Shown piece by piece: positions 38,793 through 64,000 of a stretch of DNA of 64,000 nucleotides (positions are counted from its first letter, which is position 1; each line of letters starts with the position of its first letter). The position numbers and the translations under genes were made by a program. The DNA comes from Verrucomicrobium sp. GAS474 (GTDB lineage: Bacteria; Verrucomicrobiota; Verrucomicrobiia; Methylacidiphilales; GAS474), in NCBI RefSeq assembly GCF_900105685.1, contig NZ_LT629781.1, positions 434,001-498,000 on the forward strand, read 5' to 3'. The notes under the pieces were generated by a model. That model was not told where the DNA came from. It ran no database searches and saw nothing but the letters and a program-made list of their open reading frames with translations.

Positions 38793-40817
38793 TTAAATAA
38801 TCGCCTGAGAATCCTTCCGACGCTCCCGCACCTTCTTGGCAGTCCCGGCGAGGCAACATCCCAAGCCGAGAAGCGCCCACGTCGAGGGTTCCGGCACGGC
38901 GACGGCGGTGAGGGTGATCGAGTTGGTCAGGTAGTTGATCGTGAAGGCATTGTTGCCGATGACGATCTTCGTCCCGTCGGTCTCGCCGAGGAAGTAGCCG
39001 GTGGTCGTCCCGCTGCTCTGGGCCAACGTCAGCACCGTCCCGAGGGCGAGCGTGGTGCTGCCGAGGTCGGTCCCGGAGAGCGAGGCGATGCCCGAGCCGA
39101 GGACGAGGGTGCCGGTGACGGTGACGAGATCGATCGTCCCAGCATCGCTGTTCAGCTCGAACTGGAGCTGGGACGAGGTGGTGAAGGTCAATCCTCCCGC
39201 GAAGTTCAGCGTCCCGACCGCCCCGGCGTTGCCCGCGTTGACGATGGAAGTCCCCGCTGTTCCCGCGCCGACCGTCGTCGCGCCGTTGATCGTCCCAATG
39301 CCGCCGAGGATCGCGTTGCCGGTGGTGGTCGACTTCACGCTCACGACCGAACCCGAGGCGAGGCTGCCGTTCACCAACAGTGTCCCGGCGTTGACCGTCG
39401 TGGCACCGGTGTAGGTGTTGGTCCCGGAAAGGGTCCAGGTGCCGGTCCCCGCCTTGAGGATCGAGGTCTTGTTCGTCGTGCTGTTGTTGACGATGGCCCC
39501 GGCGACCTCGCCCGTCCCGGAGGTCGAGCCCTGGAGGGTGAGGGTCTTCGAGCCCGCGCCGGTCGCGGTAAAGTCGCTGGTGAACTTCAACGCCCCCGTC
39601 CCCGACTGGTCGAGCGTCGCGCCGCCGGTCGTCCCCGCGAGGTTGATGACACGGTCGGTGGTTTCCCCCGTGCCGGTATCGACGAGGGTCCCGGTGGTCA
39701 TCGTCGCGCCGATGGCGATGGTGCCGTTGGCGACCGTGACCGGAGCGCCCAGACTGCTCTTCGCGACGCCGCCGGAGACGCTGTTCAGCGTGCTCACGCT
39801 GAGCGTTCCCGCCTGGATCGCGGTCGCCCCGGTGTAGGAATTCAACCCCGATAGGGTCATCCAACCCGCCCCCGCCTTGATCACCCCCGCGCTGCTGCCG
39901 CTGAAGGCACCCGAGAAGAGCAGATCGACCGCCGCCGCACCGTCGGCGACGGTGAACGTCTTCGCCGACGCCCCCGACATGTTCGCCGCCATCGTCGACG
40001 TCGTGGCGCTGGCCAGCGTCACGACGCTGTTGCCGAACCAGCTCGCCGCCCCGGTCGTCCCCTGCAGTGTCCCGCCGGTCATCGTGATTGTCCCGTAGAT
40101 ATAGGTGTAAGCCTGGCTGAAGGTCCCCCCATTGAGGGTCAGCGCGCCGATCGTCACATTCTGGGAAGCCCCGGTGGAAGCCATCGCCCCGCTCTCCACG
40201 ACGATAGACGAGGCCGAGGTCGTCGGCTGCGTGCTGCCGGAAATGGCGAGGACGAGGGTCCCTGCGCTGACGTCGATCGCCCCGGCGTAGGTGGTGCCGC
40301 TGAGGGTCAGCGTCCCGGCCCCGGTCTTCGTGATCCCGCTCCCGCCCGTGGTGGTGATCGAGCCGCTGAGGGTGAGGTTCGCGTCGGTCTCGATCGTCGT
40401 GCTGCTCCCCAGGACGACGGGGGCGGAGACGACGTTCGTGTTCGCCGTCCGCGAGGCGTTGCTGACGAGGAGGGCGCTGCCGCTCGCCGCCTGGAGGGTC
40501 AGCGTGTTCGTCGCGCTGCCCGCGAGGGTGAAGAGGTAATTGCTCCCGTTCGTCGTGTTGTTGAAGGTGAGGGAGCCGAGGGTGATCGGCGCGTCGAGGG
40601 TGATCGTCTGGGAACCGGCGAGGTTCAGGGTCAGGTTCGCGACGTCGCCGATCGCATTGGGATAGGCCGTCCCGCCCCAGTTCGCCGCCGTGGTCCAGGT
40701 GTAGGCGGTCCCGGCGGCCGTCGGGGTCCACGTGTAGGTCGCCGCCCGGGCGGAGGTTCCCGACAGGACGCAGGCCAGCATGAGGGAGAAAAGCGATGGG
40801 AGGGAGATGGTTTTCAT
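38793..40817 (-). CDS. PEP-CTERM protein with autotransporter-associated beta-strand repeats (1)
   Basis: A 674-residue exported protein. A signal peptide (core FSLMLACVLSGTSARA) leads to a long Thr/Ser/Gly-rich beta-helical body. Several PATR-type repeats occur, for example GTGTWTLSGTNTYTGATTVN and the similar GAGWMTLSGLNSYTGATAIQ. The C-terminus is VPEPSTWALLGLG, a hydrophobic segment and a basic tail, the PEP-CTERM sorting signal cut by an exosortase. No exosortase gene is in the window. It is divergent from the GntR-type hybrid regulator with a palindrome between them, and upstream of GH36. Confidence 0.9.
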   Translation of the reverse strand: MKTISLPSLFSLMLACVLSGTSARAATYTWTPTAAGTAYTWTTAANWGGTAYPNAIGDVANLTLNLAGSQTITLDAPITLGSLTFNNTTNGSNYLFTLAGSATNTLTLQAASGSALLVSNASRTANTNVVSAPVVLGSSTTIETDANLTLSGSITTTGGSGITKTGAGTLTLSGTTYAGAIDVSAGTLVLAISGSTQPTTSASSIVVESGAMASTGASQNVTIGALTLNGGTFSQAYTYIYGTITMTGGTLQGTTGAASWFGNSVVTLASATTSTMAANMSGASAKTFTVADGAAAVDLLFSGAFSGSSAGVIKAGAGWMTLSGLNSYTGATAIQAGTLSVSTLNSVSGGVAKSSLGAPVTVANGTIAIGATMTTGTLVDTGTGETTDRVINLAGTTGGATLDQSGTGALKFTSDFTATGAGSKTLTLQGSTSGTGEVAGAIVNNSTTNKTSILKAGTGTWTLSGTNTYTGATTVNAGTLLVNGSLASGSVVSVKSTTTGNAILGGIGTINGATTVGAGTAGTSIVNAGNAGAVGTLNFAGGLTFTTSSQLQFELNSDAGTIDLVTVTGTLVLGSGIASLSGTDLGSTTLALGTVLTLAQSSGTTTGYFLGETDGTKIVIGNNAFTINYLTNSITLTAVAVPEPSTWALLGLGCCLAGTAKKVRERRKDSQAII

Positions 40818-40955: not shown

Positions 40956-40971
40956 AATTGTTTTAACAATT
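40956..40971. promoter_or_regulatory. Inverted repeat between PEP-CTERM gene 1 and the GntR-type regulator
   Basis: AATTGTT-TT-AACAATT is a perfect 7-2-7 inverted repeat in the 235-bp divergent gap. It lies about 82 bp before the regulator start and 139 bp before the PEP-CTERM start. It resembles the ATTGT...CAAATTG element before the two other PEP-CTERM genes. It is a likely operator for the adjacent regulator. I saw no further gene in the gap. Confidence 0.6.
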
Positions 40972-45663: not shown

Positions 45664-46671
45664 TCAGGCGATCGTCGCCATCATCTCCTCGTCGACCTGG
45701 CCGTGGAGGGGAGCCCCGACCAGGTACCGTTCGCACTCGTCGATCGCCATCGCGGCGAGGCGGCGGCATTCCCCGTCGACGGCCCCGGCGATGTGCGGGG
45801 TGAGGACGACGTTCGGGAGGGTGTAGAGCGGGGAGTCGGGGGCGGGCGGCTCGGGATGGGTGACGTCGAGGAGGGCGTGGAGGTCGGGACGGCGGTAGAG
45901 GACCTCGATCAGTTCCCGCTCGTTGACGATGGCGCCCCGCGCGGTGTTGATGAAGGCGGCGTCGGGCCGCATCCGCGCGAAGTGATGGCCCCGGATCATC
46001 CCGACGGTCTCCGGGAGGAGCGGGGTGTGGAGGGAGACGACGTGGGCGGTCTCGAAGAGTTCCTCCAGGGAGACCTTCCGGACGCCGAGGGCCTGCGCCG
46101 CGGCGTCGGAGAGGAACGGATCGTAGGCGATGACCTCGACGCGGAAGGGCCGCAGGAGCGGGATGAGGTGCCGCGCCACCGCGCCGACCGAAATCAGGCC
46201 GACGACGCTGTCGTAGATCCCGGGCATGGGATGGCGGACCGGCCGCCGCGCCGCCCGCATGTCGGCCACGTGCCGCCACGCGAGCTTCAGGCTGAGGAGG
46301 ATCTGGGCGAGGGTGAACTCGGCGACGGTGACGGCCAGGACGCTGTTCGCCGAGCTGACGACGATGCCCCGCGCCCAGAGGGCGTCGGTGACGAAGCCCT
46401 TCACGCTTCCCGCCGCGAAGAAGATCGCCTTGAGGTTCGGCGCGGCGGCGAGGAAGGCCTCGTCGCAGCGGGGCATCCCCCATCCGCCGAAGACGACCTC
46501 GGCCTCGGCCAGGGCCTGCGCCGAGGCGCCCCCGCGCTCCCGGAGCGAGACGGCGTCGTCCATCGGGCACGGCCCGGAAACGATTCCCTCCAGCCGCTTC
46601 CGCTCGGCCGGTCCGTAGACATTCCCCCAGTAAGGGCGGTCGAGCAGGATCAACGCGGCGGGCTTTCTCAT
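45664..46671 (-). CDS. D-isomer-specific 2-hydroxyacid dehydrogenase
   Basis: A 335-residue NAD-dependent dehydrogenase of the SerA/LdhA fold. Catalytic Arg is in INTARGAIVNE, Glu in DVTHPEPPAPDSPL and His in LTPHIAGAVDGE. The nucleotide loop reads VGLISVGAVARHL, where the first and third glycines of GxGxxG are Ser and Ala. That still suits the subfamily but could weaken NAD binding. The ATG at 46671 overlaps the GH92 stop by 4 bp (ATGA), so the two are coupled. The substrate is unknown; a sugar-derived hydroxyacid is a guess from context. Confidence 0.88.
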   Translation of the reverse strand: MRKPAALILLDRPYWGNVYGPAERKRLEGIVSGPCPMDDAVSLRERGGASAQALAEAEVVFGGWGMPRCDEAFLAAAPNLKAIFFAAGSVKGFVTDALWARGIVVSSANSVLAVTVAEFTLAQILLSLKLAWRHVADMRAARRPVRHPMPGIYDSVVGLISVGAVARHLIPLLRPFRVEVIAYDPFLSDAAAQALGVRKVSLEELFETAHVVSLHTPLLPETVGMIRGHHFARMRPDAAFINTARGAIVNERELIEVLYRRPDLHALLDVTHPEPPAPDSPLYTLPNVVLTPHIAGAVDGECRRLAAMAIDECERYLVGAPLHGQVDEEMMATIA

Positions 46672-48659
46672 ACAGGATGAAGTTTCGCGATTTCGATTCC
46701 GGGGAGTTCGATCTTTCCAACGCCGCCCGAGCCACCGAAGCCGCCGAGGCCCTCGAAATGGACGTGTCCCTTCCGGCCCGGGCATTGGGGATAGAGGCCG
46801 AGGGTGGCCCAGACATACCAGGCCGCCATCTCGCCGTTGTCCTCGTCCCCGGGGAAGGTCTCCGGGGTGTAGAGCGTCGTCGCCACCGCGCGGACCCAGC
46901 GGGAGGTCTTCTCCGGCTCGCCGTTCAGGGCGTAGAGGAAGAGGAAGCCGTGGACCGGCTGGTTCGACTGGGCGTATTGGCCGAACCCGGCCTGGGCCAT
47001 CTCGGTCATCTCGTGGATCTCGAAGCCGTAGTGCCCGGCCTCGAAGGTCGGCGGGAGGGCCATCATCCGGTCGAGCTTCGCGCAGAGCGCCCGGGGCCCG
47101 CCGAGGAGGGAGGCGAGGCCCTCGGGATCGTGCGGAACGTTGAAGAGATGCTGCCAGGGGCCGCCCTCGACGAAGCCGCCGCCCCAGGAGAACTCGCGGA
47201 AGGGGGTCTTCCAGCTCCCGTCGGCCAGCCGCTCCCTCATGAAGCCGACGGAGGGATCGAAGACGTTGCGGTAATTCTGCGCGCGCCGGGCCATCTGCTC
47301 CGCCTCCGCCGTCCGCCCCAGGTGCCGGGCGACCTGGCCGACGCAGAAATCGTCGTAGGCGTAATCGAGGGTGCTCGAGACGGCGTAGAGATGGCGGTCG
47401 GAGGGGACGTAGCCGAGCCGGAGGTAATCGTCGAGCTCCCGCCGCCCGTAGCGGCCCGAATCGCTCGGGACCGTCGCGTTCTTCCAGAGGAACTCGAACG
47501 CCCCCTCGACGTCCCAATCGGTGATCCCGTTCGCGACGGCGTCGGCGACGACGGCGTCGTAATGGGTCCCGATCATGCAATCGCAGAGCCCGGGATTCGC
47601 CCACTTCGGGGACCAACCCGCCTGGCGGCAGGCGTTGAGCCAGCCCTCGAGCATCCGCTTCAGCGTCTCCGGGTAGAGGAGGACGAGGAGGGGATAGAGC
47701 GTCCGGTGGGTGTCCCAGAAGCCGTTGTCGGTGCAGAGCGGGCCGGAATGGATCCCCCCGTCGTAGGGGCTGTAATGGACGACCGCGCCCGCCTCATCGA
47801 CCTCGTCGAGGAAGCGGGGGAAAAGGAGGCAGCGGTAGAGGCACGAATAGAAGGTGCGGGCGCGCCTCTCTTCCTCCGCCGTCCCGGGGATTCCGAGATC
47901 GACGCGACCGAGGAGGGCAGTCCAGACCTCGGCCCCTTCGTTTCGGAGCGTGTCGAGGGAGCGGTCGCGCAGTTCCCGCGCCCACGCCGTCCGGGCCATC
48001 TCCCCGCTCATGAAGGAACCGGCGAGGCGGAGTTCGACCCGCCGGGCCGAGGCCGGGAAGGTCCAATAGCCTCCGTCGGGAAGCGGCGTGAAGGCCTCCG
48101 GGGCGACGTCGAAGGAACCGAAGAAATGGAGCCCGAAGACCTCGGGCGTGGCGTAGGTCTTGTCGCGGGAACAGCCGGTGAAGCGGTTCTCCCCCGCGCC
48201 GCCCCGGATCTCGTGGACGCCGCCGAAGTGGAGGCGGACTTTCAACGGCTCGGAGGCGTCCCCCTGCGGCGTGAAGACGAAGAGGGCGCCCCGCTCGGCG
48301 GGGCTCATCTCGACGAGGAGTCCGTAGCGGAGCGACTCGTACCGGAGCGAGGCGGGCTGGCATTCCAGGAGGCGGTAGGCCCCGGCCTGGTGCTCGATCT
48401 CCTCCCGCGCCGGGCCGCGGAAGGCGGTGACGAGGAGGCTCCCGTAATCGCCCATCCACGGGCTCGGCTGGTGGGTGAGGCGGATGCCCCAGACCTTTTG
48501 ATGGGCGGGGTGAAAAAGCCACGGCCCCTTCGCCGTCTGGAGCGACCAATGGTGCATTCCGAAGGGACGGGCGAGGAGCGGCAAGGTGTTGCCGACCGAG
48601 TAATCCTTTTCGGAGGCGGTCCCCTGGAGGGGATTGACGAAGGAGAGAAGGTCCCGCAT
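46668..48659 (-). CDS. GH92-family glycosidase (alpha-mannosidase-like)
   Basis: A 663-residue protein of the calcium-dependent exo-alpha-mannosidase family GH92. Signature blocks are LCTDNGFWDTHRTLYPLLVL, TLDYAYDDFCVGQVARHLG and FPGDEDNGEMAAWYVWATLG (the catalytic-acid region). HQPSPWMGDYG is near the N-terminus. There is no signal peptide, whereas most GH92 enzymes are exported, so this one may act inside the cell. Starts 8 bp after PEP-CTERM gene 2 and overlaps the dehydrogenase start. Confidence 0.92.
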   Translation of the reverse strand: MRDLLSFVNPLQGTASEKDYSVGNTLPLLARPFGMHHWSLQTAKGPWLFHPAHQKVWGIRLTHQPSPWMGDYGSLLVTAFRGPAREEIEHQAGAYRLLECQPASLRYESLRYGLLVEMSPAERGALFVFTPQGDASEPLKVRLHFGGVHEIRGGAGENRFTGCSRDKTYATPEVFGLHFFGSFDVAPEAFTPLPDGGYWTFPASARRVELRLAGSFMSGEMARTAWARELRDRSLDTLRNEGAEVWTALLGRVDLGIPGTAEEERRARTFYSCLYRCLLFPRFLDEVDEAGAVVHYSPYDGGIHSGPLCTDNGFWDTHRTLYPLLVLLYPETLKRMLEGWLNACRQAGWSPKWANPGLCDCMIGTHYDAVVADAVANGITDWDVEGAFEFLWKNATVPSDSGRYGRRELDDYLRLGYVPSDRHLYAVSSTLDYAYDDFCVGQVARHLGRTAEAEQMARRAQNYRNVFDPSVGFMRERLADGSWKTPFREFSWGGGFVEGGPWQHLFNVPHDPEGLASLLGGPRALCAKLDRMMALPPTFEAGHYGFEIHEMTEMAQAGFGQYAQSNQPVHGFLFLYALNGEPEKTSRWVRAVATTLYTPETFPGDEDNGEMAAWYVWATLGLYPQCPGRKGHVHFEGLGGFGGSGGVGKIELPGIEIAKLHPV

Positions 48660-50440: not shown

Positions 50441-50465
50441 AACAGGGGTTGCTTAAATCATGAAG

Positions 50466-50509
50466 CAAGCAATTTGATCCACAATCATCCCGCAATTCTT
50501 CCTATAGAA
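50466..50509 (-). promoter_or_regulatory. Conserved control region of PEP-CTERM gene 2
   Basis: On the coding strand, TTCTATAG (50509-50502) is followed after 16 nt by ATTGTGGATCAAATTGCTTG (50485-50466). Both elements and their spacing recur before PEP-CTERM gene 3. TTCTATAG starts 69 nt before the start codon. It could be a -10-like element or part of an operator (TTCTTC-CT-ATAGAA on the plus strand). Confidence 0.65.
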
Positions 50510-50556
50510 CGAATGCGCCCCCTGAGCACCCGGGTAGGTCCAAATGAAGGTTGTCG

Positions 50557-52890
50557 CTAACCGCGCACCGTGCCACAGGCGAGGAGACGGCGACGGGAAG
50601 CGACGGCGACAAACAGCGCCGACGCGAGGAGGAGAACCCAGGTGGCAGGCTCCGGCACGGCGGCGGCGACGATGAGATTGATCTGGCCGACGGTCGTGAA
50701 ATCGAGCGTGGCGGTGTACCCGTCGAGGCCGGTGCTCCCCGCGAGGTCGAAGTCGGAGGACTGGAAGTTGACCGAGGCAGCCGTCGACGTGTTGCTGCTG
50801 GAATAGAACTGGAAGAGGGTATAGGTCCCCGCCTGCGTCCCGCTGAAGTTGAAAGCGTTCGCCGAGAGGGAGAGATCGCCGCTGACGTAGCTAAAGAAGA
50901 CGATCTTGTCGCTCGTGCTCGAGGCACCGAGATCGAAGTTGAGCTTCGCGCCCGAGGCCAGCGTCACCACGTTTCCGGTCACCGCCGCCCCGGTGAAATT
51001 GAGGGTGCCGATCGAACCGGCGAGGCCGGGGGCGATCGCGCCGCCGCTGTTCACGATGACCTGGCCGCTGCCCAACGTCGTCGAAGGCGTGATAGTGCCG
51101 GTGCCGCCGAGAATGCCGGTGCTGTTCACCGTGACGAGACCCGTACCGGTGCCGCCGTTACTCGTGACGAGAAGGGTACCCGCGTTGATGGTGGTGGGGC
51201 CGTTATAGGTGTTGGCATTGCTGAGGATGAGAGCGCTCGTCAGGCTGTTCTGGACAACCCCCGTCACGTTCGTCTTGATCTGGCTGCTGATCGTGGTCGC
51301 ACCCGTTCCGGCTCCCGAATGGGTGACGATCCCGGTGTTGTTCACCGTGCCGGTCACCGAAGTCGTGCCGCCCGCCGCGCTGACCAGATTGAGGTTGCCG
51401 ATCTGGTTGAAGCCACCCGACATCAACGTGGCGCTCGTCGAATTGGTCGTCACGGTCACACTGCCCGTGCCGTTGATGGCGCCGCTTTCGGTCAGGTTGG
51501 TTGTCCCCGCATTCGTGACGTTGTTGATGAATTGAACGTCGCGACCATTCAGGTCGACTCCGCCGGTCAGGGTAAACGGCTGATTCGAGACGATCCCGTA
51601 GCTCGCGATGGTCAGCGCGCCGGTCGTGCCGCCCAGACTGATCTTATTCGTGAGGCTGGTCGTACCGAGATTCATGAGGGTCGCGGCGTTGGAGCCGGAA
51701 GAATCGCCCAGCGTGATCACGTTGGCGGAGGCCCCGAACGCGGAGGTGCCCCCGACGAGCAGCGTCCCCTTCTTCACCGTGACCGTTCCGACGAAGGCCG
51801 TGTTCTGGGCAGCACTGACGCCGTTGATATAGAGGGAAGAGGTGGCGCTGTCCTGGACGATGCCCGTCACGTTGGCCCCGAGGGCACTGTTGATGATCAC
51901 GCCGCCCTGCATATTCCCCGTAGTGATGACCGTGGTACTGCTGCCGTTATTCGTGATGGTCCCGGAGTTGTTGACGCCGCCCGTGAGGGAAACGTTGCCG
52001 GTCGCGCTCGAGTTATTGGCGATGACGAGGTCGTGGGCTCCGCTGATCGCGCCGCTGAAAGTCGCCGAGGCGCTCGTACCGCCGCTTGCCTGCCCCAGCG
52101 TGAGGGTGCCCGTGGTGGTGCCGAGGACGATGGCGTTGGCGATGGTGGCGTTGCTGTTGTTGGCGCCCATGAGCGCCGCCGAGCCGCTGCCGCCCGTACC
52201 GCCCAGAGAGATCGCCGTGGTCGTCGCCCCCGCCCCTCCCGACTTCAGCAGGACCGTCCCCGACTGGACCGCCAGCCCATCGGTGAAGGTATTCACCGCG
52301 AAGAGGGAAACCGTCCCCGCCGTGTTCACCTTCACGGCAGCGCCGCTGACGACGCCGTTGAGGACGATGCTCCCGGAGGCGTTCGTTCCGCCGAGCGTGA
52401 GGGTCTGGCCCGTGGCGACGGCGACCGTGCCGCTGAGGGTCAATGCCGAGGCATTGTTGACGAGGAAGCTCGAACTGTTATCGACAACCAGGTTCAGCTT
52501 ATTGCTGAAGGTCAGCCCAAAGTTGCCGCTGTTGTCGATCAGGATCGCCGTGTTGGCGAGGCCGTTGAGCGTCGCCGTACCGACCAGCTCGAAAGTCTGG
52601 ATCGCCGAGGGACTGATGGTGAGAGTCTGACCGAGGCCGTCAGCCAGCCAAAGCCCCTGCAGCGTCGTCGCGGCGGCGATCACCGGCTGATTCGTGAAGG
52701 TCGAGTTGAACTCGGCGCTGACCGTCGCCGAAGGAACGCCCGCCGACCAATTCCCGGACGTCGTCCAAGCCGTCGTCCCGCCATTCCAGACCGATTCCGC
52801 CGTGTCGGCCACGACCCCGCCGACACCTCCCAGGCAAAGGAGGACCGCCGCCCCGAGAAGGGAGCGAGAGAGGAGGGAGTGAGTTTTCAC
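50557..52890 (-). CDS. PEP-CTERM protein with autotransporter-associated beta-strand repeats (3)
   Basis: A 777-residue exported protein. A GTG start at 52890 is chosen because the next upstream possibility (TTG at 52920) lies inside a conserved control element and would add residues before the signal peptide. The signal peptide core is LLGAAVLLCLGGVGGVVA. The body is Thr/Ser/Asn/Gly-rich with PATR repeats such as NANTYNGPTTINAGTLLVTS. The tail VPEPATWVLLLAS plus SRRR is the PEP-CTERM signal. Divergent from the pilin-like cassette. Confidence 0.88.
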   Translation of the reverse strand: MKTHSLLSRSLLGAAVLLCLGGVGGVVADTAESVWNGGTTAWTTSGNWSAGVPSATVSAEFNSTFTNQPVIAAATTLQGLWLADGLGQTLTISPSAIQTFELVGTATLNGLANTAILIDNSGNFGLTFSNKLNLVVDNSSSFLVNNASALTLSGTVAVATGQTLTLGGTNASGSIVLNGVVSGAAVKVNTAGTVSLFAVNTFTDGLAVQSGTVLLKSGGAGATTTAISLGGTGGSGSAALMGANNSNATIANAIVLGTTTGTLTLGQASGGTSASATFSGAISGAHDLVIANNSSATGNVSLTGGVNNSGTITNNGSSTTVITTGNMQGGVIINSALGANVTGIVQDSATSSLYINGVSAAQNTAFVGTVTVKKGTLLVGGTSAFGASANVITLGDSSGSNAATLMNLGTTSLTNKISLGGTTGALTIASYGIVSNQPFTLTGGVDLNGRDVQFINNVTNAGTTNLTESGAINGTGSVTVTTNSTSATLMSGGFNQIGNLNLVSAAGGTTSVTGTVNNTGIVTHSGAGTGATTISSQIKTNVTGVVQNSLTSALILSNANTYNGPTTINAGTLLVTSNGGTGTGLVTVNSTGILGGTGTITPSTTLGSGQVIVNSGGAIAPGLAGSIGTLNFTGAAVTGNVVTLASGAKLNFDLGASSTSDKIVFFSYVSGDLSLSANAFNFSGTQAGTYTLFQFYSSSNTSTAASVNFQSSDFDLAGSTGLDGYTATLDFTTVGQINLIVAAAVPEPATWVLLLASALFVAVASRRRLLACGTVRG

Positions 52891-52917
52891 GCGCGTGGAT
52901 TTGCCTAAAGTTTGAAT

Positions 52918-52979
52918 CAAGCAATTTGTTTTACAATAACGTCGAAGTTCTCTCTATAGAATGGATTCTATAATGAGAA
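52918..52979. promoter_or_regulatory. Conserved control region between PEP-CTERM gene 3 and the pilin-like cassette
   Basis: Coding-strand (minus) order for PEP-CTERM gene 3: TTCTATAG (52961-52954), 16 nt, then ATTGTAAAACAAATTGCTTG (52937-52918), 17 of 20 identical to the element before gene 2. On the plus strand, TTCTCTCTATAGAA (52948-52961) and TTCTATAATGAGAA (52966-52979) are two similar 14-mers, the second containing a perfect TATAAT. The 214-bp divergent gap shows no gene. Confidence 0.6.
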
Positions 52980-53104
52980 TCTCAGAGAGATCGCTAAAGC
53001 TGGTTTGGGAGCAATTATTATGTTCGAGAGCGATGAAATCGGCTATTTGTAATACAGTAACAACCCGTGCGGCCTATTCTGGGGGGAATCAGGGAAGGCA
53101 CCTC

Positions 53105-53617
53105 ATGCAGACACTCTCTTCTCCTTCGCCCTCCTCTTCCCTGTTGTCCCCCATCTCCTCCCCCGCGTTCAGCCTCGTCGAAGTCCTCCTCGCGCTCGGC
53201 ATCTGCTCCTTCGTCCTCATCGCCCTCCTCGCCCTCTTCACCATCGGCCTCCACGACAGCCGGGAGTCGGGGGAAAAGATCGAGGCGGCCAACCTCGCCT
53301 CCCTCATCCTCTCCGCCCGGCGCGCCTCCCCCCTGGGGACCAACGGGACGATGGCGACCCTGGCGATCCCTCCCACGGCGCTCGCCCGCTCCTTCGGCGA
53401 CGCCTATGCCGGGGCCGACAAGTACGTCGCCCTCGACGGCACCCTCACCACCCCGGCGAAGGCCGCCTTCCGCATCCGGTGCAGCGCGGGGACGAACGCC
53501 GTGATGGGGGCCGACGTCGCCCTGGTCCACCTCTTCCTGAGCTGGCCCCCGCAGATGGCCCCCTCCCAACCCAACGTGAAGTCGTATGAATTCATCAGCG
53601 CCATCCCGCTCCGTTAG
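53105..53617 (+). CDS. Type IV pilin-like protein, Verru_Chthon cassette protein B type
   Basis: A 170-residue prepilin-like protein. The N-terminal cleavage/methylation motif is SPAFSLVEVLLALGICSFVL with the +5 Glu and hydrophobic helix. A short globular part with no cysteine pair suited to a minor pilin follows. The ATG at 53105 has GGGAAGG at a good distance and places the motif about 22 residues in, so longer readings are rejected. Its stop overlaps the next start by 32 bp. Order and sizes match the Verrucomicrobia-specific cassette. Confidence 0.8.
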   Translation: MQTLSSPSPSSSLLSPISSPAFSLVEVLLALGICSFVLIALLALFTIGLHDSRESGEKIEAANLASLILSARRASPLGTNGTMATLAIPPTALARSFGDAYAGADKYVALDGTLTTPAKAAFRIRCSAGTNAVMGADVALVHLFLSWPPQMAPSQPNVKSYEFISAIPLR

Positions 53618-54398
53618 CCTCCGCCGTTCCGCCCGGCGCGGCGGCTTCACCCTCGTCGAGGTCCTCGTCGCCATCACCGTCCTGACGCTGATCACCACCC
53701 TGCTGACGCAGATGATGGGGACGGCGCAGAAGGTCTCCAACGTCGTCCAGCAGCGGATCAACAACTTCACGAAGGCCCGCGCCCTGCTCGACCTCCTGGC
53801 GCGCGACCTCTCCGCGGGGCTCTACCGGAGCGACCTCGCCGTCTACCCCGCCGGAAGCCAGACAACGATCGCCTTCTACACCCTTCGCCCCGGGGCCAGC
53901 TCCGCCGCCACGCGGAACCTCGCCCTCGTCCAGTACTCCATCGACGCGACCTCGACCGACAGCATCCTGAAGCGGAGCGACCTCTCGATCGGCTGGGGCT
54001 CCCAGGCGAAGGACGTCTCCTTCGGCGACGCCACGCTCACGAACCTCGCCCGCGTCACGCCGAGCGATACCGCGAGCGGCGTCGTCGGCCTCCAGATCCG
54101 CTTCGTGATGGCCGACGGGACGACGCAGTCGACCTACGCGAACACCGTCGACAATCCTCTCCGCGCCATCGGCGTCACCCTCGCCGTCGTCGACGACGAG
54201 AGCCTCAAGCGGATGACCCCGGCGGAACTCCTCTCCCTGCGCGGGACGCTTGCCTCCGCCGCCCCCGCGAACTATACCGTGAAGGAAGCCTGGCAGAAGT
54301 CCCTCGACGGCTCCTTTGATTGGGCCGCCTATCCCGCCTCCCTCCGCAACGGCCTCCAGATCTTCGAACGCTTCGTCTATGTCTCTCCCGTCTTCTGA
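53586..54398 (+). CDS. Type IV pilin-like protein, Verru_Chthon cassette protein C type
   Basis: A 270-residue pseudopilin-like protein. The prepilin motif is RRGGFTLVEVLVAITVLTLI near residues 18-37, followed by a long coiled segment (MGTAQKVSNVVQQRINNFTK) and a beta-rich C-terminal domain resembling GspJ/PulJ in size. The start lies 32 bp inside the previous gene and its end overlaps the next gene by 20 bp. This tight packing suggests coupled translation and a joint structure. Confidence 0.8.
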   Translation: MNSSAPSRSVSLRRSARRGGFTLVEVLVAITVLTLITTLLTQMMGTAQKVSNVVQQRINNFTKARALLDLLARDLSAGLYRSDLAVYPAGSQTTIAFYTLRPGASSAATRNLALVQYSIDATSTDSILKRSDLSIGWGSQAKDVSFGDATLTNLARVTPSDTASGVVGLQIRFVMADGTTQSTYANTVDNPLRAIGVTLAVVDDESLKRMTPAELLSLRGTLASAAPANYTVKEAWQKSLDGSFDWAAYPASLRNGLQIFERFVYVSPVF

Positions 54399-57300
54399 CC
54401 GCCGTCCCTCCCTTCCGCCACGGGGGGAACGGAGCATGGCGCTGCTGGTCACCCTCTTCCTCATCGCGATCCTCTCGCTGATGCTCGTCGCGCTCGTCAG
54501 CCGGACCAGCCTCGACCACCAGGCGAGCGCCAACTACACGAAATCGCTCGGCGCCGAGCAGATCGGGATCGCCGGGCTCGAGATGGTGATCTCCCAGCTC
54601 CGCCAAGAGATGAGCAAGGACCAGCTCCCCGACCTCACCTACCCCGCCAAGCCTCTTTACACGAACGTCACCGCCGCCAACCTCTCTCCCCAGGCCCTCG
54701 GGACGAACAGCGCGATGCCGCTCCTCGTCAAGATCAGCACCAACGCCCCGTTCTTTACCGGGACGCGGACGAAGGGAACCCTCGTCGCCTCGACGATCAG
54801 CACGGCGACGGCCTCCCTCAACGGCCGCTCCCTCGGCATCACCCGCTGGAACGATCCCTACCTCGGCACGTTCCCCTCGACGAAGGCCCTTCCCTCCTGG
54901 GTCATCGTCACCCGCGGCGGTCCCTCCGACGGGACGAAGGCCCTCTTCGGCCCCGCCGGCGAGACGATCAACAACAGCGCCATCTCCAACACGAACTACG
55001 CCGTCGGCCGCTTCGCCTACGCCGTCTACGACACCAGCGGCCTCCTCGACATCACCATCGCCGGTTATCCCACCAACCTCGTTTCCGCGATCCAGGCCGT
55101 GGCGCTGAAGGGGACCCTGGCCGGGGCCGACGTCTCCGCCCTCGGGATCGACCCGAAGAAATTGACCACCTGGCGCAACGCCGCCTCCGCCGCCTCGGCC
55201 ACCTCCTACCTCACCTACGTCACGAACTTCGCCTCGACGAACGGCTTCCTGAGCGTCGCCAACGGGGACACCACCTTCCTCAGCCGCCAGGACCTCATCC
55301 AGGCCGCGCAGAAGGGAACCGCCGGGCTGACGACCGCCGCCCTCACGAACCTCACCGTCTTCAGCCGGGAACGGAATTCCCCCACGTGGCGCCCGCAAAA
55401 TCCGCCCGGCATCACTCCCTCCGTCAACTACACCACCCTCGGAACCGTCGCCACCTCGACCAACGTCTTCCCCCCCCTCGTCCGCTACACCACGACGAAT
55501 ACCATCACCAGCTACCGGATCAGCGGCTCCGGCTCCTCCAAATACACCTATCCCGTCAAGGCGGGCGACCCCCTCCTCTACACCCGTTTCCCCCTCGACC
55601 GCATCCGCTGGATCACCTCCTCCGGCCCCGCCGCCGGGGCGACCGACGAGGCGATCCAGGCCTGTTTCGGCCTGAAGTGGGACACCGCGCGCGGGCTGTG
55701 GCAATACGTCGGTTCGACCCTTCCCTACGCCTCCTCCCCTGCGGAACAATCGTCGATCAAGACTCTCGCCCAGGTCGCCGCCGAGACGAAACCCCGCGAG
55801 GCGAATTTCTTCGAGCTCCTCCAGGCGGGGATCCTCACCGGCTCCCTCGGCAGCGAGCTCCATCTCACCCCGCCCCTCACCGGTAGCGTCAACGGATTCA
55901 ACGCCAATACCTTCCACGAGAGTTCCTCCCTCCTTCACATTTTCCGGATCGGCGCCTCGATCCTCACCCAATACCAGCCCGACGCCTGCCCGGTCGTCGT
56001 CGAATACGTCCAGCCGAGCATCAAGATCGGCAGCACCACTTATCCCGCCGCCGGCAAGAGCCTCATCCCGTGGCAGGCATCGGGCATCGCCAACCTCCCC
56101 TACCTCAACATGATGACCGTCCTGGGCGGAACCAGCCCGGACAATGCCGCCAACATGGCCATCTACATGGTGTTCGGCCTTTGGAACCCCCATCAGGGGA
56201 CGGGGACCGTGACCTCGACGAATCGTCCCCCCATCCGTCTGCGCTCCATCGGCACCGTTTCCGTCTGCGATTTCTACGGCGGGTTTTCCCCCGGCGGCTA
56301 TTCGACGGTCCCCCAAAGCACCTCCGTCAACGCTGGCGCCATTCCGGGCTATACCCATACGCTCAACACCACGAACCTCCTCTCCACCGCGGGTGCCAAC
56401 GGGGTGAACGGCTTCGTCGATCCCCATGCGATCGCGCCGAACGACATGTCGGTCTCCGCTCCGGTCAGCACTCCCGCCGGCTCCTCCTGGGCCACATTCA
56501 TGGCCCCCGGCAACGTCACCTACGGCGGTTACCGTCTCCCCGACTTCAAGCTCAGCGCGACCTATGCGAGCAGCAACTTCTGGACTAACAGCCTTACCAT
56601 CTCCGGCAGCGGCACTTCCGCCATCACCAATTCCTCCTATACCAGCTCGATGAATTTCTGGGCCAACAACGACCCCGTCAACAACCCCTTCAACGTCTGG
56701 CTCGAGTACCAGAACCCGAAGGGCGTCTGGGTCCCCTACAACTACCTCAACGGGATCAACGACACCAACACCTGGATGGCGAAGACGCCCGGCTTCACCT
56801 TCGCGGGACTCGGCAGGCTCAACCCGAGCAACTCCATCGCCACTCCCGTCTCCATTTCCGAAACCACCGCGACCGATCCCGGAAACAACTACTACTACAA
56901 ATGCTTCTGGGAAGTACCCGATCCCCGCTCCCTCCGCTACAACTACACCCAATCCCAGTCCGCCGGCACGTCGGTCTGGCCGACCCATCTCAACGGCTCT
57001 TACTGGTCCTCGTCGACCGATAGCGCCAGCCAGACCCTGGGATGGATCGGAGCCCAGATCGCCCAGATCTACTTCGGCCCCTCGTGGGTCCCCGCTTCCC
57101 TGGCGCGAAACAACAATCAGGCCAACTTCGTCCGCGCCGTCGCCACCAGCGCCGCCGCCTACAAGGATCCCGACGGCGTCGCGCGGATCGCCGACAGCGG
57201 CCTCTTCGGCCTCACCACCCCGGCGACGGCGAACAACTGGGCGGGCGATCCCTACGCCTCCTCCAGCCTCGTCGTCCAGCGGGGCGTCTCCGACCGGCCG

Positions 57301-57915
57301 GTGATCCTGAACCGCCCCTTCGCCAGCGTCGGCGAGCTCGGCTACGTGAATCGCGATTACCCCTGGCGGACCCTCGACCTCTTCACCACGAACAGCGCCG
57401 ACGCGGGCCTTCTCGACCTCTTCACCGTCAGCCAGTCGAGCGACTCCGTCGCACGGGGCCGCGTGAACCCGAACCGCGCCCCGGCTCCCGTCATCGAGGC
57501 CATTCTGCGGGGGACGATCTCCGGCGTCGCCACCACGAACGCCCTCTCCAAACCCTCGACCATCGCCGGAAGCCTGACGAATTTCACCGCGACGGCGGCG
57601 AACACCCTTCTTGGCCGGGACCAGATCGCGACCCGCTTCGTCGCGGGCCTCAACGCGGCGAACTTCGCCACGACCGACGAGGCGAATGTGAAGGCCCTGC
57701 GCGAGAGCGTGACCCGCTCCCTCGCCGACGTCGCCCAGACCCGGACGTGGAATCTCCTCATCGACGTCACCGCCCAGGCAGGCCGCTACCCCCCGACGGC
57801 AACACGCCTCGACCAGTTCCAGGTCGAGGGGGAACACCGGTTCTGGCTCCATATCGCGATCGATCGGTATACGGGGGAGATTATTGATCAGCAGATTGAG
57901 CGGGTGAGTCAGTAG
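54379..57915 (+). CDS. Large pilus-like surface protein, Verru_Chthon cassette protein A type
   Basis: A 1178-residue protein. The N-terminus (residues 1-45) carries a basic Pro-rich stretch and one hydrophobic helix MALLVTLFLIAILSLMLVAL, like PilX/GspK proteins. A very long Ser/Thr/Asn-rich body of unknown fold follows, typical of Verru_Chthon cassette protein A. The C-terminus (RYPPTATRLDQFQVEGEHRF then IDQQIERVSQ) is well formed, so it is not truncated. The ATG at 54379 overlaps the previous gene. Role unknown; an extracellular fibre or secretion apparatus is the usual guess. Repeat R5 begins about 10 bp after the stop. Confidence 0.82.
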   Translation: MSLPSSDRRPSLPPRGERSMALLVTLFLIAILSLMLVALVSRTSLDHQASANYTKSLGAEQIGIAGLEMVISQLRQEMSKDQLPDLTYPAKPLYTNVTAANLSPQALGTNSAMPLLVKISTNAPFFTGTRTKGTLVASTISTATASLNGRSLGITRWNDPYLGTFPSTKALPSWVIVTRGGPSDGTKALFGPAGETINNSAISNTNYAVGRFAYAVYDTSGLLDITIAGYPTNLVSAIQAVALKGTLAGADVSALGIDPKKLTTWRNAASAASATSYLTYVTNFASTNGFLSVANGDTTFLSRQDLIQAAQKGTAGLTTAALTNLTVFSRERNSPTWRPQNPPGITPSVNYTTLGTVATSTNVFPPLVRYTTTNTITSYRISGSGSSKYTYPVKAGDPLLYTRFPLDRIRWITSSGPAAGATDEAIQACFGLKWDTARGLWQYVGSTLPYASSPAEQSSIKTLAQVAAETKPREANFFELLQAGILTGSLGSELHLTPPLTGSVNGFNANTFHESSSLLHIFRIGASILTQYQPDACPVVVEYVQPSIKIGSTTYPAAGKSLIPWQASGIANLPYLNMMTVLGGTSPDNAANMAIYMVFGLWNPHQGTGTVTSTNRPPIRLRSIGTVSVCDFYGGFSPGGYSTVPQSTSVNAGAIPGYTHTLNTTNLLSTAGANGVNGFVDPHAIAPNDMSVSAPVSTPAGSSWATFMAPGNVTYGGYRLPDFKLSATYASSNFWTNSLTISGSGTSAITNSSYTSSMNFWANNDPVNNPFNVWLEYQNPKGVWVPYNYLNGINDTNTWMAKTPGFTFAGLGRLNPSNSIATPVSISETTATDPGNNYYYKCFWEVPDPRSLRYNYTQSQSAGTSVWPTHLNGSYWSSSTDSASQTLGWIGAQIAQIYFGPSWVPASLARNNNQANFVRAVATSAAAYKDPDGVARIADSGLFGLTTPATANNWAGDPYASSSLVVQRGVSDRPVILNRPFASVGELGYVNRDYPWRTLDLFTTNSADAGLLDLFTVSQSSDSVARGRVNPNRAPAPVIEAILRGTISGVATTNALSKPSTIAGSLTNFTATAANTLLGRDQIATRFVAGLNAANFATTDEANVKALRESVTRSLADVAQTRTWNLLIDVTAQAGRYPPTATRLDQFQVEGEHRFWLHIAIDRYTGEIIDQQIERVSQ

Positions 57916-61084: not shown

Positions 61085-62443
61085 TCAGGGGGTCTTGGCC
61101 TGCTCGGCGATGTGGGCGAGGGTCAGCTTCTTCGAGTCGTTCCAGATCTGCGGCCCGATGTCGTGTCCGTTCTCGACGTGGTTCACGATCTCCTTCTTTC
61201 CGGCCAGGTTGTTGTAGGCGAGGTAGCCGCAGGTCGGAGGGCAGATGACGTCGAGGAAGCCGACCTCGACGTGGGCCGGGATCTTGATCCGGGTGGCGAA
61301 GTTCGACGTGTCGAAGTAGCGCATCGCCTCGGTGACCTTCGGGTCGTATTGGCCGTCGGCCCCTTTCGGGACGATCTTCGGCCAGCCCGCGATGCGGCCC
61401 GCGAGGAAGCCCGAGTGGTCGGAGAGGCCGGGGACGAAGGCGATCATGTAGGTGACGCGGGGCTCGAGCGCCGCCGCGGCGAAGGCGAGGCCGCCGCCCT
61501 GGCTGCCGCCGATGAGGATCAGGGTCTTCCCGTCCCACTCGGGCTGCTCCATCAGGAACTGGAGCGCGCGGAGGCTCCGGTAGTGGACGCCGAGGAAGTA
61601 GTAGGTGTCCCGCGAGTCGCGGCCGCGGACGCGGTAGTCCTTCAGCTCCCCGCCGTCGAGGCCGCCGTAGAAGGCGCCGGGCTGGCCGTTCGGGATGCCG
61701 TGGGCGTTGATGTCGGCGACGAGCATGCCATTCCCGTTCTTCGCCCAGCCGGCGACGCCGTCGAGGTTCGCGCTGCGGACGCCGGCCCCGGGGACGAAGA
61801 GGAGGGCGGGAAGGCTCTTCGGCGCGGCCCCGATCGGGCGGCCGTAGAAGCCCATGACGGGGTTGCCGATGCTGTCGGCCTGGAACTCGAAGGTCTCGAC
61901 GCCGGAACGGTTCGCCGGGGGCGGGACGGGGGTCAGCTTCGTGTTCATCGGGACCGCCGCCAGCTCCTTCTTCTTCGCGTCCCAGAAGGCGTCGAAGTCG
62001 TCGGGGACGGGGAGGCTCGGCTTGATCAGCGTCGGGTCGATCCCGCCCGCCGAGATCGCAGTGAGGAGGCCCTTGTCGCTCTTGAACTTCGCCTCGCAAT
62101 GGAGGAAGCCGGGCTCGCTCATCGTCCCGGTGATCGAGGCCTTGCCGTCGTGGACCGTCGCCGTCCCGTGGTCGAGGGGCGGGAGGACGCCGTCCTTCGT
62201 CAGCGTCCACTCGACGGCCCCCTCGGCGACCGGCTGCTGGTTCGTCAGGAGGGAGATATTGAAGGTGACCGTCTCCCCCTGGTGGTAGAGGGCGTCGGGC
62301 CGGTCGGCGGTCACCGTCAGCACCGTCTCGGCAGGGGTCTTCCCGTCGGAGGACGAGGCGGCGACGACATCTGTGGAGTATCCGATTTCCATGGCGAGGG
62401 CGAGGAGAGGGGTGAGGAGGAGGCGCAGGATGCGGCGTTTCAT
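61085..62443 (-). CDS. Exported acetylxylan esterase-like hydrolase (CE7/AXE1)
   Basis: A 452-residue protein. A signal peptide (MKRRILRLLLTPLLALAM) and a beta-rich N-terminal extension (about 40-130) precede an alpha/beta hydrolase of the AXE1/CE7 type. The nucleophile elbow is GGSQGGGLAF, Asp is likely in HVEVGFLDVICPPT and His in NGHDIGPQI. The oxyanion-side RGRDSRDTYYFLG replaces the usual RGQ. CE7 enzymes deacetylate sugars. The ATG at 62443 fits the signal peptide; a GTG 24 bp upstream is possible. A CTATAG box starts 68 nt before this start. Confidence 0.86.
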   Translation of the reverse strand: MKRRILRLLLTPLLALAMEIGYSTDVVAASSSDGKTPAETVLTVTADRPDALYHQGETVTFNISLLTNQQPVAEGAVEWTLTKDGVLPPLDHGTATVHDGKASITGTMSEPGFLHCEAKFKSDKGLLTAISAGGIDPTLIKPSLPVPDDFDAFWDAKKKELAAVPMNTKLTPVPPPANRSGVETFEFQADSIGNPVMGFYGRPIGAAPKSLPALLFVPGAGVRSANLDGVAGWAKNGNGMLVADINAHGIPNGQPGAFYGGLDGGELKDYRVRGRDSRDTYYFLGVHYRSLRALQFLMEQPEWDGKTLILIGGSQGGGLAFAAAALEPRVTYMIAFVPGLSDHSGFLAGRIAGWPKIVPKGADGQYDPKVTEAMRYFDTSNFATRIKIPAHVEVGFLDVICPPTCGYLAYNNLAGKKEIVNHVENGHDIGPQIWNDSKKLTLAHIAEQAKTP

Positions 62444-62497
62444 GTTTACAGGGATTCTTCTTATCACTGGGCTTCGATGCGAGCAAAGGCGACGAAA

Positions 62498-62511
62498 TTC
62501 ATACTATAGAA
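62498..62511 (-). promoter_or_regulatory. CTATAG-box site before the CE7 operon
   Basis: TTCATA-CT-ATAGAA (plus strand); on the coding strand it reads TTCTATAGTATGAA. TTCTATAG starts 68 nt before the CE7 start codon. Matches the sites before PEP-CTERM genes 2 and 3. Confidence 0.55.
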
Positions 62512-62560
62512 TACCCCTCTCCCCGCCCTGCGGCGCGGAGACCGCCGCCACCGCTATTCG

Positions 62561-63691
62561 CTATTTCGCCGCGACCCGTCGCCGTGTCGGCTTCGGCTTG
62601 GGCGAGATCGCCTCCTCCGCCTTGGGCTCGGGCGTCGGATTCGGCTTGGGCAGCGACATCAGGTCCTTCTTCGGGAGAACGGTCGCCCCGTCGATCCACG
62701 TGCCGTCGATCAGGAGCTGGCTGCGGGTCTCGGGGATGCCCCGCTCGTTGCGATGGATCATCCCGATGAGGAAGTCGACGGCGGCGCGGCCGATGAGAAG
62801 GTCGTTCTGGCAGACCCCGGCGAGGCTACCGTCGGTGGAGGCCAGGCTGAGGGAAGCCCAGCCGCAGGTCTCGGGACCGACGCCGAGCAGGGCGAAATAG
62901 TCGGCGACCGGCGGGTAATGGTAGATGACGACCTCGGGCTTGTACCGCTGGTACCATTTCTTGAACTGCGGCAATTCGTCGACCCGCGGCCCATCGTCGA
63001 GGATCAGCATCGGGACCTGGTCCTCGGGCCGGAAGCGGCGCTGCTCGGAGAGGAAGCCGGAGGAGAAATTCTGGTCGGTCCGCTCGTCGTTGACGCGGGT
63101 GGTGACGAAGGCGATCCGCCGGTAGCCGTGGGCGCGGAGGGCGCGGACCGCGATCCGGGCGGAGCGGTACTGCGCGTTGCTCACCAGATGAAGCCGCGGC
63201 CGGGAGAGGGTGTAGCCGAAGCAGACCGCCGAGAAGTTCTCCCAATCGAAGTTGATGTGGGCGCGGCTGAACGACTGGGGCGGGATGATGAGGCCCTGGA
63301 TGTTGCGGGCCTTCAGGATCTTCGAGAGCCGTCCGCTGCTGAGTTCCGAGAGGCGGAATTCCTCCATCTGGTATCCCAGCTCGGCGCACCGCTCCTCGCC
63401 TCCCTTGCGGTATTCCTTGAAGCCGCTCCACGGCTGACCCTTGCGGAAGACGGGGCCGATCCAGGCCAGCGTCCCCTGGTGGCGGACCCGCTTGATCCGC
63501 TCCCGGTAGATCGTGAGGGCGGAGAGCATCGGATCGGGCCGGTACCCCATCTCCTCGGCGATGGAGCGGATCCGCTGCCGCGTCGCCTCGGGAAGGCGGG
63601 GACTGTCGCGCAGGGCGAGGGAAACCGTCGTGATATGGACACCGGCCCGCTGCGCGATATCGCGCTGTCCGACATAGCCCGGAAGGATCAT
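62561..63691 (-). CDS. LacI-family regulator of the lyase/esterase cluster
   Basis: A 376-residue regulator. The N-terminal HTH is QRDIAQRAGVHITTVSLALR, with a hinge up to MGYRPDPMLSALTIY, then a periplasmic-binding-type sensor domain. The C-terminal block GRAAVDFLIGMIHRNERGIP is followed by TRSQLLIDGTWIDGATVLPK. A Lys/Pro-rich tail of about 35 residues is unusual. The ATG at 63691 places the HTH at residues 9-28. A perfect 6-2-6 palindrome (63692-63705) directly precedes the start, suggesting autoregulation. Divergent from an MFS gene. Confidence 0.9.
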   Translation of the reverse strand: MILPGYVGQRDIAQRAGVHITTVSLALRDSPRLPEATRQRIRSIAEEMGYRPDPMLSALTIYRERIKRVRHQGTLAWIGPVFRKGQPWSGFKEYRKGGEERCAELGYQMEEFRLSELSSGRLSKILKARNIQGLIIPPQSFSRAHINFDWENFSAVCFGYTLSRPRLHLVSNAQYRSARIAVRALRAHGYRRIAFVTTRVNDERTDQNFSSGFLSEQRRFRPEDQVPMLILDDGPRVDELPQFKKWYQRYKPEVVIYHYPPVADYFALLGVGPETCGWASLSLASTDGSLAGVCQNDLLIGRAAVDFLIGMIHRNERGIPETRSQLLIDGTWIDGATVLPKKDLMSLPKPNPTPEPKAEEAISPKPKPTRRRVAAK

Positions 63692-63705
63692 TTCTATAGA
63701 TAGAA
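63692..63705. promoter_or_regulatory. Palindrome abutting the LacI-type start
   Basis: TTCTAT-AG-ATAGAA is a perfect 6-2-6 inverted repeat adjacent to the start codon of the regulator. It is the most symmetric member of the CTATAG-box set and so the best operator candidate. Confidence 0.65.
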
Positions 63706-63840: not shown

Positions 63841-64000
63841 ATGAGTCTTCCCCTCACCGAAACCCCGGCGACCCCCTCCGCCGCCGCGCCGCATAAAATC
63901 TGGACCGTCGGCACCCTCACCTACACCTCGGCCGGGCTCGTCGCCCTCTTCTGCTGGCTCCTGTGGGGGGATTTCGCCTGGTCGATGCGGGACCGCTCGA
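63841..64000 (+). CDS. MFS transporter, N-terminal part (cut by window edge)
   Basis: The 53 visible residues contain WTVGTLTYTSAGLVALFCWL then LWGDFAWSMRDRS, the first membrane segment of a family of MFS transporters frequent in Verrucomicrobiota saccharide clusters. It is divergent from the LacI-type regulator of the lyase/esterase genes and probably imports the released sugars or uronates (inference). The ATG at 63841 begins shortly before the first membrane segment. Confidence 0.75.
   Translation, partial: MSLPLTETPATPSAAAPHKIWTVGTLTYTSAGLVALFCWLLWGDFAWSMRDRS

Follow-up and report, generated by a model that had tools for sequence, protein, structure and literature searches.

A candidate LacI operator and a shared leader upstream of PEP-CTERM genes in Verrucomicrobium sp. 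GAS474

The control region of two neighboring PEP-CTERM genes of Verrucomicrobium sp. GAS474 is composite: a 14-bp dyad is followed by a leader that carries a 20-bp element. We consider it likely that the region of TTCTATAG is the dyad operator of a local, sugar-responsive LacI-family regulator, and that the 20-bp element belongs to a leader that arrived with a gene duplication and was preserved by constraint or local copying. The genes lie in the window, i.e. the whole 64,000-nt stretch of DNA that was analyzed (contig NZ_LT629781.1, positions 434,001–498,000), to which all coordinates refer unless they are given for the chromosome (G000:C1, or in kb). Genome-wide searches covered the 3.76-Mb chromosome, which is a single contig and 99.92% complete.

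Both genes are on the minus strand and encode PEP-CTERM proteins with autotransporter-type repeats, P0001 (48668–50440) and P0002 (50557–52890, with a GTG start). The preliminary description had placed two similar 20-mers, ATTGTGGATCAAATTGCTTG (50466–50485, minus strand) and ATTGTAAAACAAATTGCTTG (52918–52937, minus strand), at a constant distance downstream of TTCTATAG; both positions were confirmed, and exactly 16 nt separate the two elements in both copies. A degenerate version of the 20-mer had 2 matches and gave 0 in 100 out of 100 shuffles. The upstream likeness of the two genes exceeds 20 bp and covers 66 nt, with a local alignment score of 30 (best of 1000 shuffles, 15) and 46 of 66 positions identical in a fixed 66-nt register. 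A third, weaker relative was found outside the window, upstream of the PEP-CTERM gene G000:C1:502006–503820, which scored 19 against the first gene (shuffle maximum 16) and 9, a chance value, against the second. A related sequence had also been said to precede PEP-CTERM gene 1, which was not borne out if that gene is the one at 38793–40817: its upstream region scored 7 against both others, with shuffle means of 7.5 and 8.1.

The 12-mer core of the 20-bp element, with up to one mismatch, has these two copies in the complete genome and no others. A block model of the region, used to search the genome with its 29 PEP-CTERM matches over the Pfam cut-off, returned three strong matches and one at an E-value of 5.6. 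The three carriers of the 20-bp block are paralogous PEP-CTERM genes, and the weak fourth match (62441–62517), upstream of the gene for an AXE1 esterase, retains just TTCTATAG and the next few bases. When enriched 8-mers were sought across 32 upstream regions of PEP-CTERM/PATR genes, nothing stood out; this set comprised 27 of the 29 PEP-CTERM genes over the cut-off, one weak match and four PATR-only genes, and the PEP-CTERM genes at 979194 and 1819172 were dropped from it because their starts were not settled. The 20-bp part is therefore confined to a few paralogues and is absent from other PEP-CTERM genes of the same genome, the very observation that the preliminary description had named as speaking against its PEP-CTERM promoter element. 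Nor is TTCTATAG a PEP-CTERM-specific companion, since its dyad also precedes LacI, transporter and esterase genes. What stands of the earlier reading is that the control regions are conserved beyond drift; what falls is the view that PEP-CTERM promoters generally carry the element.

TTCTATAG makes up one half of the dyad TTCTAT-N2-ATAGAA, which spans 14 bp, and TTCTATA is present in 6 copies in the window, with 0.35 expected. Upstream of the P0001 gene the dyad, a putative LacI operator, reads TTCTATAGGAAGAA (50496–50509, minus strand; −69 to −56, 2 mismatches to the pattern TTCTATNNATAGAA), and the putative operator of the P0002 gene reads TTCTATAGAGAGAA (52948–52961, minus strand; −71 to −58, 1 mismatch). 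The latter intergenic region contains a second dyad, TTCTATAATGAGAA (52966–52979, plus strand; 2 mismatches), on the side of a divergent pseudopilin gene. The dyad of the esterase gene, TTCTATAGTATGAA (62498–62511, minus strand; −71 to −58), has 3 mismatches. The only perfect dyad of the genome, TTCTATAGATAGAA (63692–63705; TTCTAT-AG-ATAGAA), lies in the intergenic region between a LacI gene and an MFS transporter gene and abuts the LacI start codon. Counted from the start codons, the dyads begin at −69 and −71 (the two PEP-CTERM genes), −71 (esterase), −63 (the third PEP-CTERM gene), −61 (a second LacI gene), −59 (an MFS sugar transporter gene) and −14 (the first LacI gene). Of the five sites near the first LacI gene, four have AG as the central dinucleotide, and all four sites near the second have GC or GG; across the dyad sites AG, GC, GG and AA were found, and CG was not among them. 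No sigma-70-like promoter was found near the dyad sites.

Genome-wide, TTCTATNNATAGAA had 28 matches with up to two mismatches and the reversed control had 27. The dyad is thus no commoner than its control, and only clustering and placement carry weight. Eight of the 28 dyads fall within 31 kb, in front of PEP-CTERM, transporter, pseudopilin and LacI-regulator genes, and random placement of 28 sites put at most 5 into 31 kb in 5000 trials. Four of the eight are inside the window and helped to shape the pattern, so the four outside it, which were found afterwards, were counted apart: that stretch was expected to contain 0.11 dyads and has four (P = 5.8e-6), and when the site of the PEP-CTERM paralogue was left out the count was three, with 0.106 expected (P = 1.8e-4).

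The cluster contains two LacI genes. The first (62561–63691, minus strand, start taken at the ATG at 63691) encodes P0005, the proposed binder of the dyad, which matches the LacI HTH family PF00356 with 46.1 bits (cut-off 27) and the sugar-binding-like domain Peripla_BP_3 with 24.6 bits, just under the cut-off of 26.5; its paralogue is located at 507 kb. The gene for the MFS transporter starts divergently from the first LacI gene (63841–64000, plus strand) and continues to G000:C1:499232. A GH92 glycoside hydrolase is encoded downstream of the first PEP-CTERM gene (46668–48659, minus strand; TIGR01180, 404 bits, cut-off 249.55), the AXE1 gene encodes an acetyl xylan esterase-like protein (61085–62440, minus strand; PF05448, 136.6 bits), and a heparinase-like protein was also identified. 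The GH92, AXE1 and heparinase-like proteins and the MFS transporters point to polysaccharide use. The pseudopilin cassette (52961–57915, plus strand) has genes that resemble Verru_Chthon B and C with scores under the cut-off, and one for a 1199-aa GspK-like protein. There is a second pseudopilin cassette at G000:C1:510558–515398 (minus strand), divergent from a 2037-aa open frame at 515497–521610. Both cassettes resemble Verru_Chthon B, C and A, with scores under the curated cut-offs, and each adjoins a dyad.

From the clustering of the dyads, their steady place before start codons, the perfect copy at the LacI start and the two LacI genes inside the cluster, we infer a LacI regulon. The gene at 62561–63691 would encode the regulator of the dyad, in an autoregulated local regulon, and the 507-kb paralogue probably also acts on the dyad. 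We propose that LacI sits on the dyad and covers a weak TATA-type promoter, which would result in repression, and that a sugar from the compound on which the linked hydrolases act would bind LacI and release it. PEP-CTERM surface proteins, pseudopilins, esterase, transporters and the regulator itself would then be expressed jointly.

LacI genes neighbor PEP-CTERM genes elsewhere in the genome. Eight of its 13 LacI genes (PF00356) have a PEP-CTERM/PATR gene within 5 kb, against 1.11 on average in random trials (0 of 3000 reached 8), and five have one within 1.5 kb (random mean 0.48, 0 of 3000 trials as high). A second system was found at 543–549 kb, where ACGCA-N6-TGCGT dyads precede three genes, namely LacI, PATR (1 mismatch) and PEP-CTERM genes, at 545646, 548129 and 549269 (G000:C1:536001–552000); with up to one mismatch, this sequence is absent from the other 134 kb scanned. 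At 2856 and 2049 kb one divergent intergenic region is common to the LacI and the PEP-CTERM gene, and the neighbor pairs at 3630, 1222 and 987 kb have no convincing common site. In the window, a palindrome AATTGTTTTAACAATT lies at 40956–40971, with a GntR/Peripla_BP_3 regulator gene on one side and the PEP-CTERM gene 38793–40817 on the other, perhaps another regulator/PEP-CTERM pair. Separately, we observed a textbook TTGACA-N17-TATAAT promoter upstream of the PEP-CTERM gene at G000:C1:3629206, together with a nearly repeated 19-nt stretch (ATCACATTCGAGTTAGATT and ATCACATCCGAATTAGATT).

Related genomes gave a mixed picture. The closest relative of P0005, with 62% identity (G039:C334, another family), is encoded between a P0001 homologue and a GH92 gene, so that the gene types of the GAS474 cluster recur together, and no significant dyad was found in its intergenic region (p = 0.28). 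Two dyads lie between a LacI gene of G042, with 58% identity, and a divergently oriented gene for a 1726-aa PEP-CTERM protein. Two relatives at 40% identity have TTCTAACTGTAGAA at −49 and TTCTCTCTGTAGAA at −46, respectively. Over 35 upstream regions of LacI relatives, which include those of the paralogues at 507 and 2856 kb from the same genome, the 14-mer matched with p ≤ 0.05 in five, and five control palindromes did so in 0–3 of the 35 each. Fisher's combined P was 0.027, and the bare core CTA-N4-TAG was not enriched in these regions (0.59). Among the matches listed for eleven relatives, 11 of 94 LacI genes were within 1.5 kb of a PEP-CTERM gene, with 1.82 expected; a twelfth genome (G024) had no PEP-CTERM match and was left out of this count. 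Five of the relatives were picked after pairs had been noticed and account for 9 of 27 LacI genes among the matches listed, and in the remaining six the pairing was not enriched (2 of 67 among the matches listed, 1.15 expected). The pairing is either lineage-dependent or masked, since the counts cover the matches listed. We suggest tentatively, as a wider view that has somewhat less than an even chance, that PEP-CTERM/PATR surface proteins of this order form units like polysaccharide utilization loci, each with its own LacI-family regulator and operator, in which exosortase-type cargo and pseudopilin cassettes would serve substrate-induced sugar capture and not a constitutive matrix.

The 20-bp element lies downstream of the dyad in the probable 5′ leader of the paralogous PEP-CTERM genes, within 55 nt for P0001 (50441–50495, minus strand; 20-mer at 50466–50485) and 57 nt for P0002 (52891–52947, minus strand; 20-mer at 52918–52937). 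From the dyad to the start codon these leaders score 21 against each other (best of 1000 shuffles, 11). When the leader of the third PEP-CTERM gene is compared with these two, one gives a score of 15 (1 of 1000 shuffles) and the other a chance value of 8; that of the esterase gene shows no likeness to the PEP-CTERM leaders. The whole 66-nt likeness could be a mere trace of tandem gene duplication, with a leader that has no function beyond its inheritance. All three genes are paralogous, with 53% over residues 35–586 and 46% over the C-terminal part, and a neighboring PEP-CTERM pair at about 3694.0–3695.1 kb of G000:C1 likewise has a 105-nt leader in common (score 51). Even so, we find duplication alone an unlikely explanation. 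As the preliminary description had stated, the coding regions are less alike than the control regions, with identity at 212 of 537 aligned residues and at 53% of the coding bases, and its proposal that the control regions are selected or copied agrees with what the leaders retain. Fourfold-degenerate sites of the two genes are identical at a frequency of 0.48, against 0.44 by chance (a further value was 0.58 against 0.49), yet the leaders keep long identical runs such as CAAATTGCTTG. As these sites are near saturation, the leader likeness is not plain recency of duplication and needs constraint or local copying; moreover, the dyad precedes unrelated genes too. In our preferred reading, the leader with the 20-bp element would have been inherited via gene duplication and retained by one of these two processes. 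At the 3694-kb pair, part of the preceding spacer recurs behind the second gene at 93%, and no Rfam family matched.

It is less probable still that TTCTATAG serves an alternative sigma factor as a −10-type promoter element common to the cluster and is not a repressor site. TATAG is present inside TTCTATAG, the distance to six start codons is near-constant, and neither an ordinary sigma-70 pair nor a sigma-54 signature was seen. However, the perfect copy of the dyad abuts the start codon of a regulator, similar dyads occur upstream of some LacI relatives, and neither a palindromic form nor clustering around LacI genes would be required of a promoter element.

About as improbable, or slightly more so, is a cis-acting leader RNA, in which the 20-bp element would form a hairpin that tunes translation of the PEP-CTERM genes. 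A possible hairpin ahead of the start codon, TTGCTTG-N10-TAAGCAA, is predicted at 50449–50472 (minus strand), although it is weak and its energy is not below that of shuffles; a similarly weak one, TTGCTTG-N10-TAGGCAA, may form at 52901–52924 (minus strand). Across the three leaders a 7-pair helix forms in 95.2% of cells, and both partners of one pair have changed, but these are three sequences only and 164 of 500 shuffles equal the helix. The folding energies are not clearly below those of shuffles (z from 0.18 to −1.67), there was no Rfam match apart from one sub-threshold chance match elsewhere, and no convincing copy was found in 59 (model R1) or 386 (model R2) other genomes. A widespread leader RNA was rejected on searches of 60 genomes (R1) and 387 genomes of the phylum (R2), the own genome included, in which only the own-genome matches were convincing and the best matches in other genomes had E-values of 0.06 and 0.08. 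Known riboswitches were likewise rejected, with no Rfam family matched. A sigma-54/PrsR promoter like that of proteobacterial PEP-CTERM genes is hardly credible, for although GG and GC are present in GTGGATCAAATTGCTTG, they are spaced by 8 and not 10 nt in one copy and the GG is missing in the other, the −24/−12 pattern GG-N10-GC was found neither in the 20-mers nor across the 32 upstream regions, of which none reached 9 of 12 matches and 5 reached 8 (shuffles 2.3, maximum 6), and PMC1569441 reports the known motif for Proteobacteria alone.

The proposed regulon resembles local LacI regulons of carbohydrate metabolism as outlined in Ravcheev et al. (2014, PMC4052901), with an even palindrome, a site that abuts the regulator's own gene and a local scope. 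According to the sections of that survey that deal with binding sites, LacI-family sites are usually even palindromes located mostly between −140 and −30, and autoregulation was noted in 72% of cases; the sites described here are mostly at −46 to −71 and are linked to hydrolases and sugar transporters. The same sections give a CG center for most sites and another center for 49 regulators, whereas the center here is AG or GC. Compared with those regulons, the first LacI gene has its site (−14 to −1) nearer to the start than usual, and PEP-CTERM surface proteins and pseudopilin cassettes are among the proposed targets. Verrucomicrobia has 0 occurrences in the main text of PMC4052901.

The known control of PEP-CTERM genes, as presented in passages of Haft et al. 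(2006, PMC1569441) and for Aquincola pepA (PMC9850573), is the sigma-54/PrsK-PrsR system of Proteobacteria. The former passages restrict the motif to that phylum and leave regulators and DNA motifs elsewhere to be discovered. Our case is similar to that system (PMC1569441) in that a common cis element lies upstream of several PEP-CTERM genes, and differs from it in that the element is a LacI-type dyad without the −24/−12 signature. Among the open-licence papers found on PEP-CTERM combined with LacI, Verrucomicrobia, promoter or operator, none treats LacI-type control of PEP-CTERM genes as judged by title or abstract. If our reading is true, a LacI operator would be a candidate for the control of PEP-CTERM genes outside Proteobacteria, the puzzling PEP-CTERM surface proteins would be connected with the utilization of specific sugars, and the short DNA site together with a named protein would form a directly testable pair. 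Polysaccharide utilization loci of Bacteroidota comprise substrate-specific surface proteins, hydrolases, a transporter and their own regulator. The cluster described here likewise combines surface proteins, hydrolases, a transporter and its own regulator, but its surface parts, unlike those of the Bacteroidota loci, are PEP-CTERM/PATR proteins and pseudopilins.
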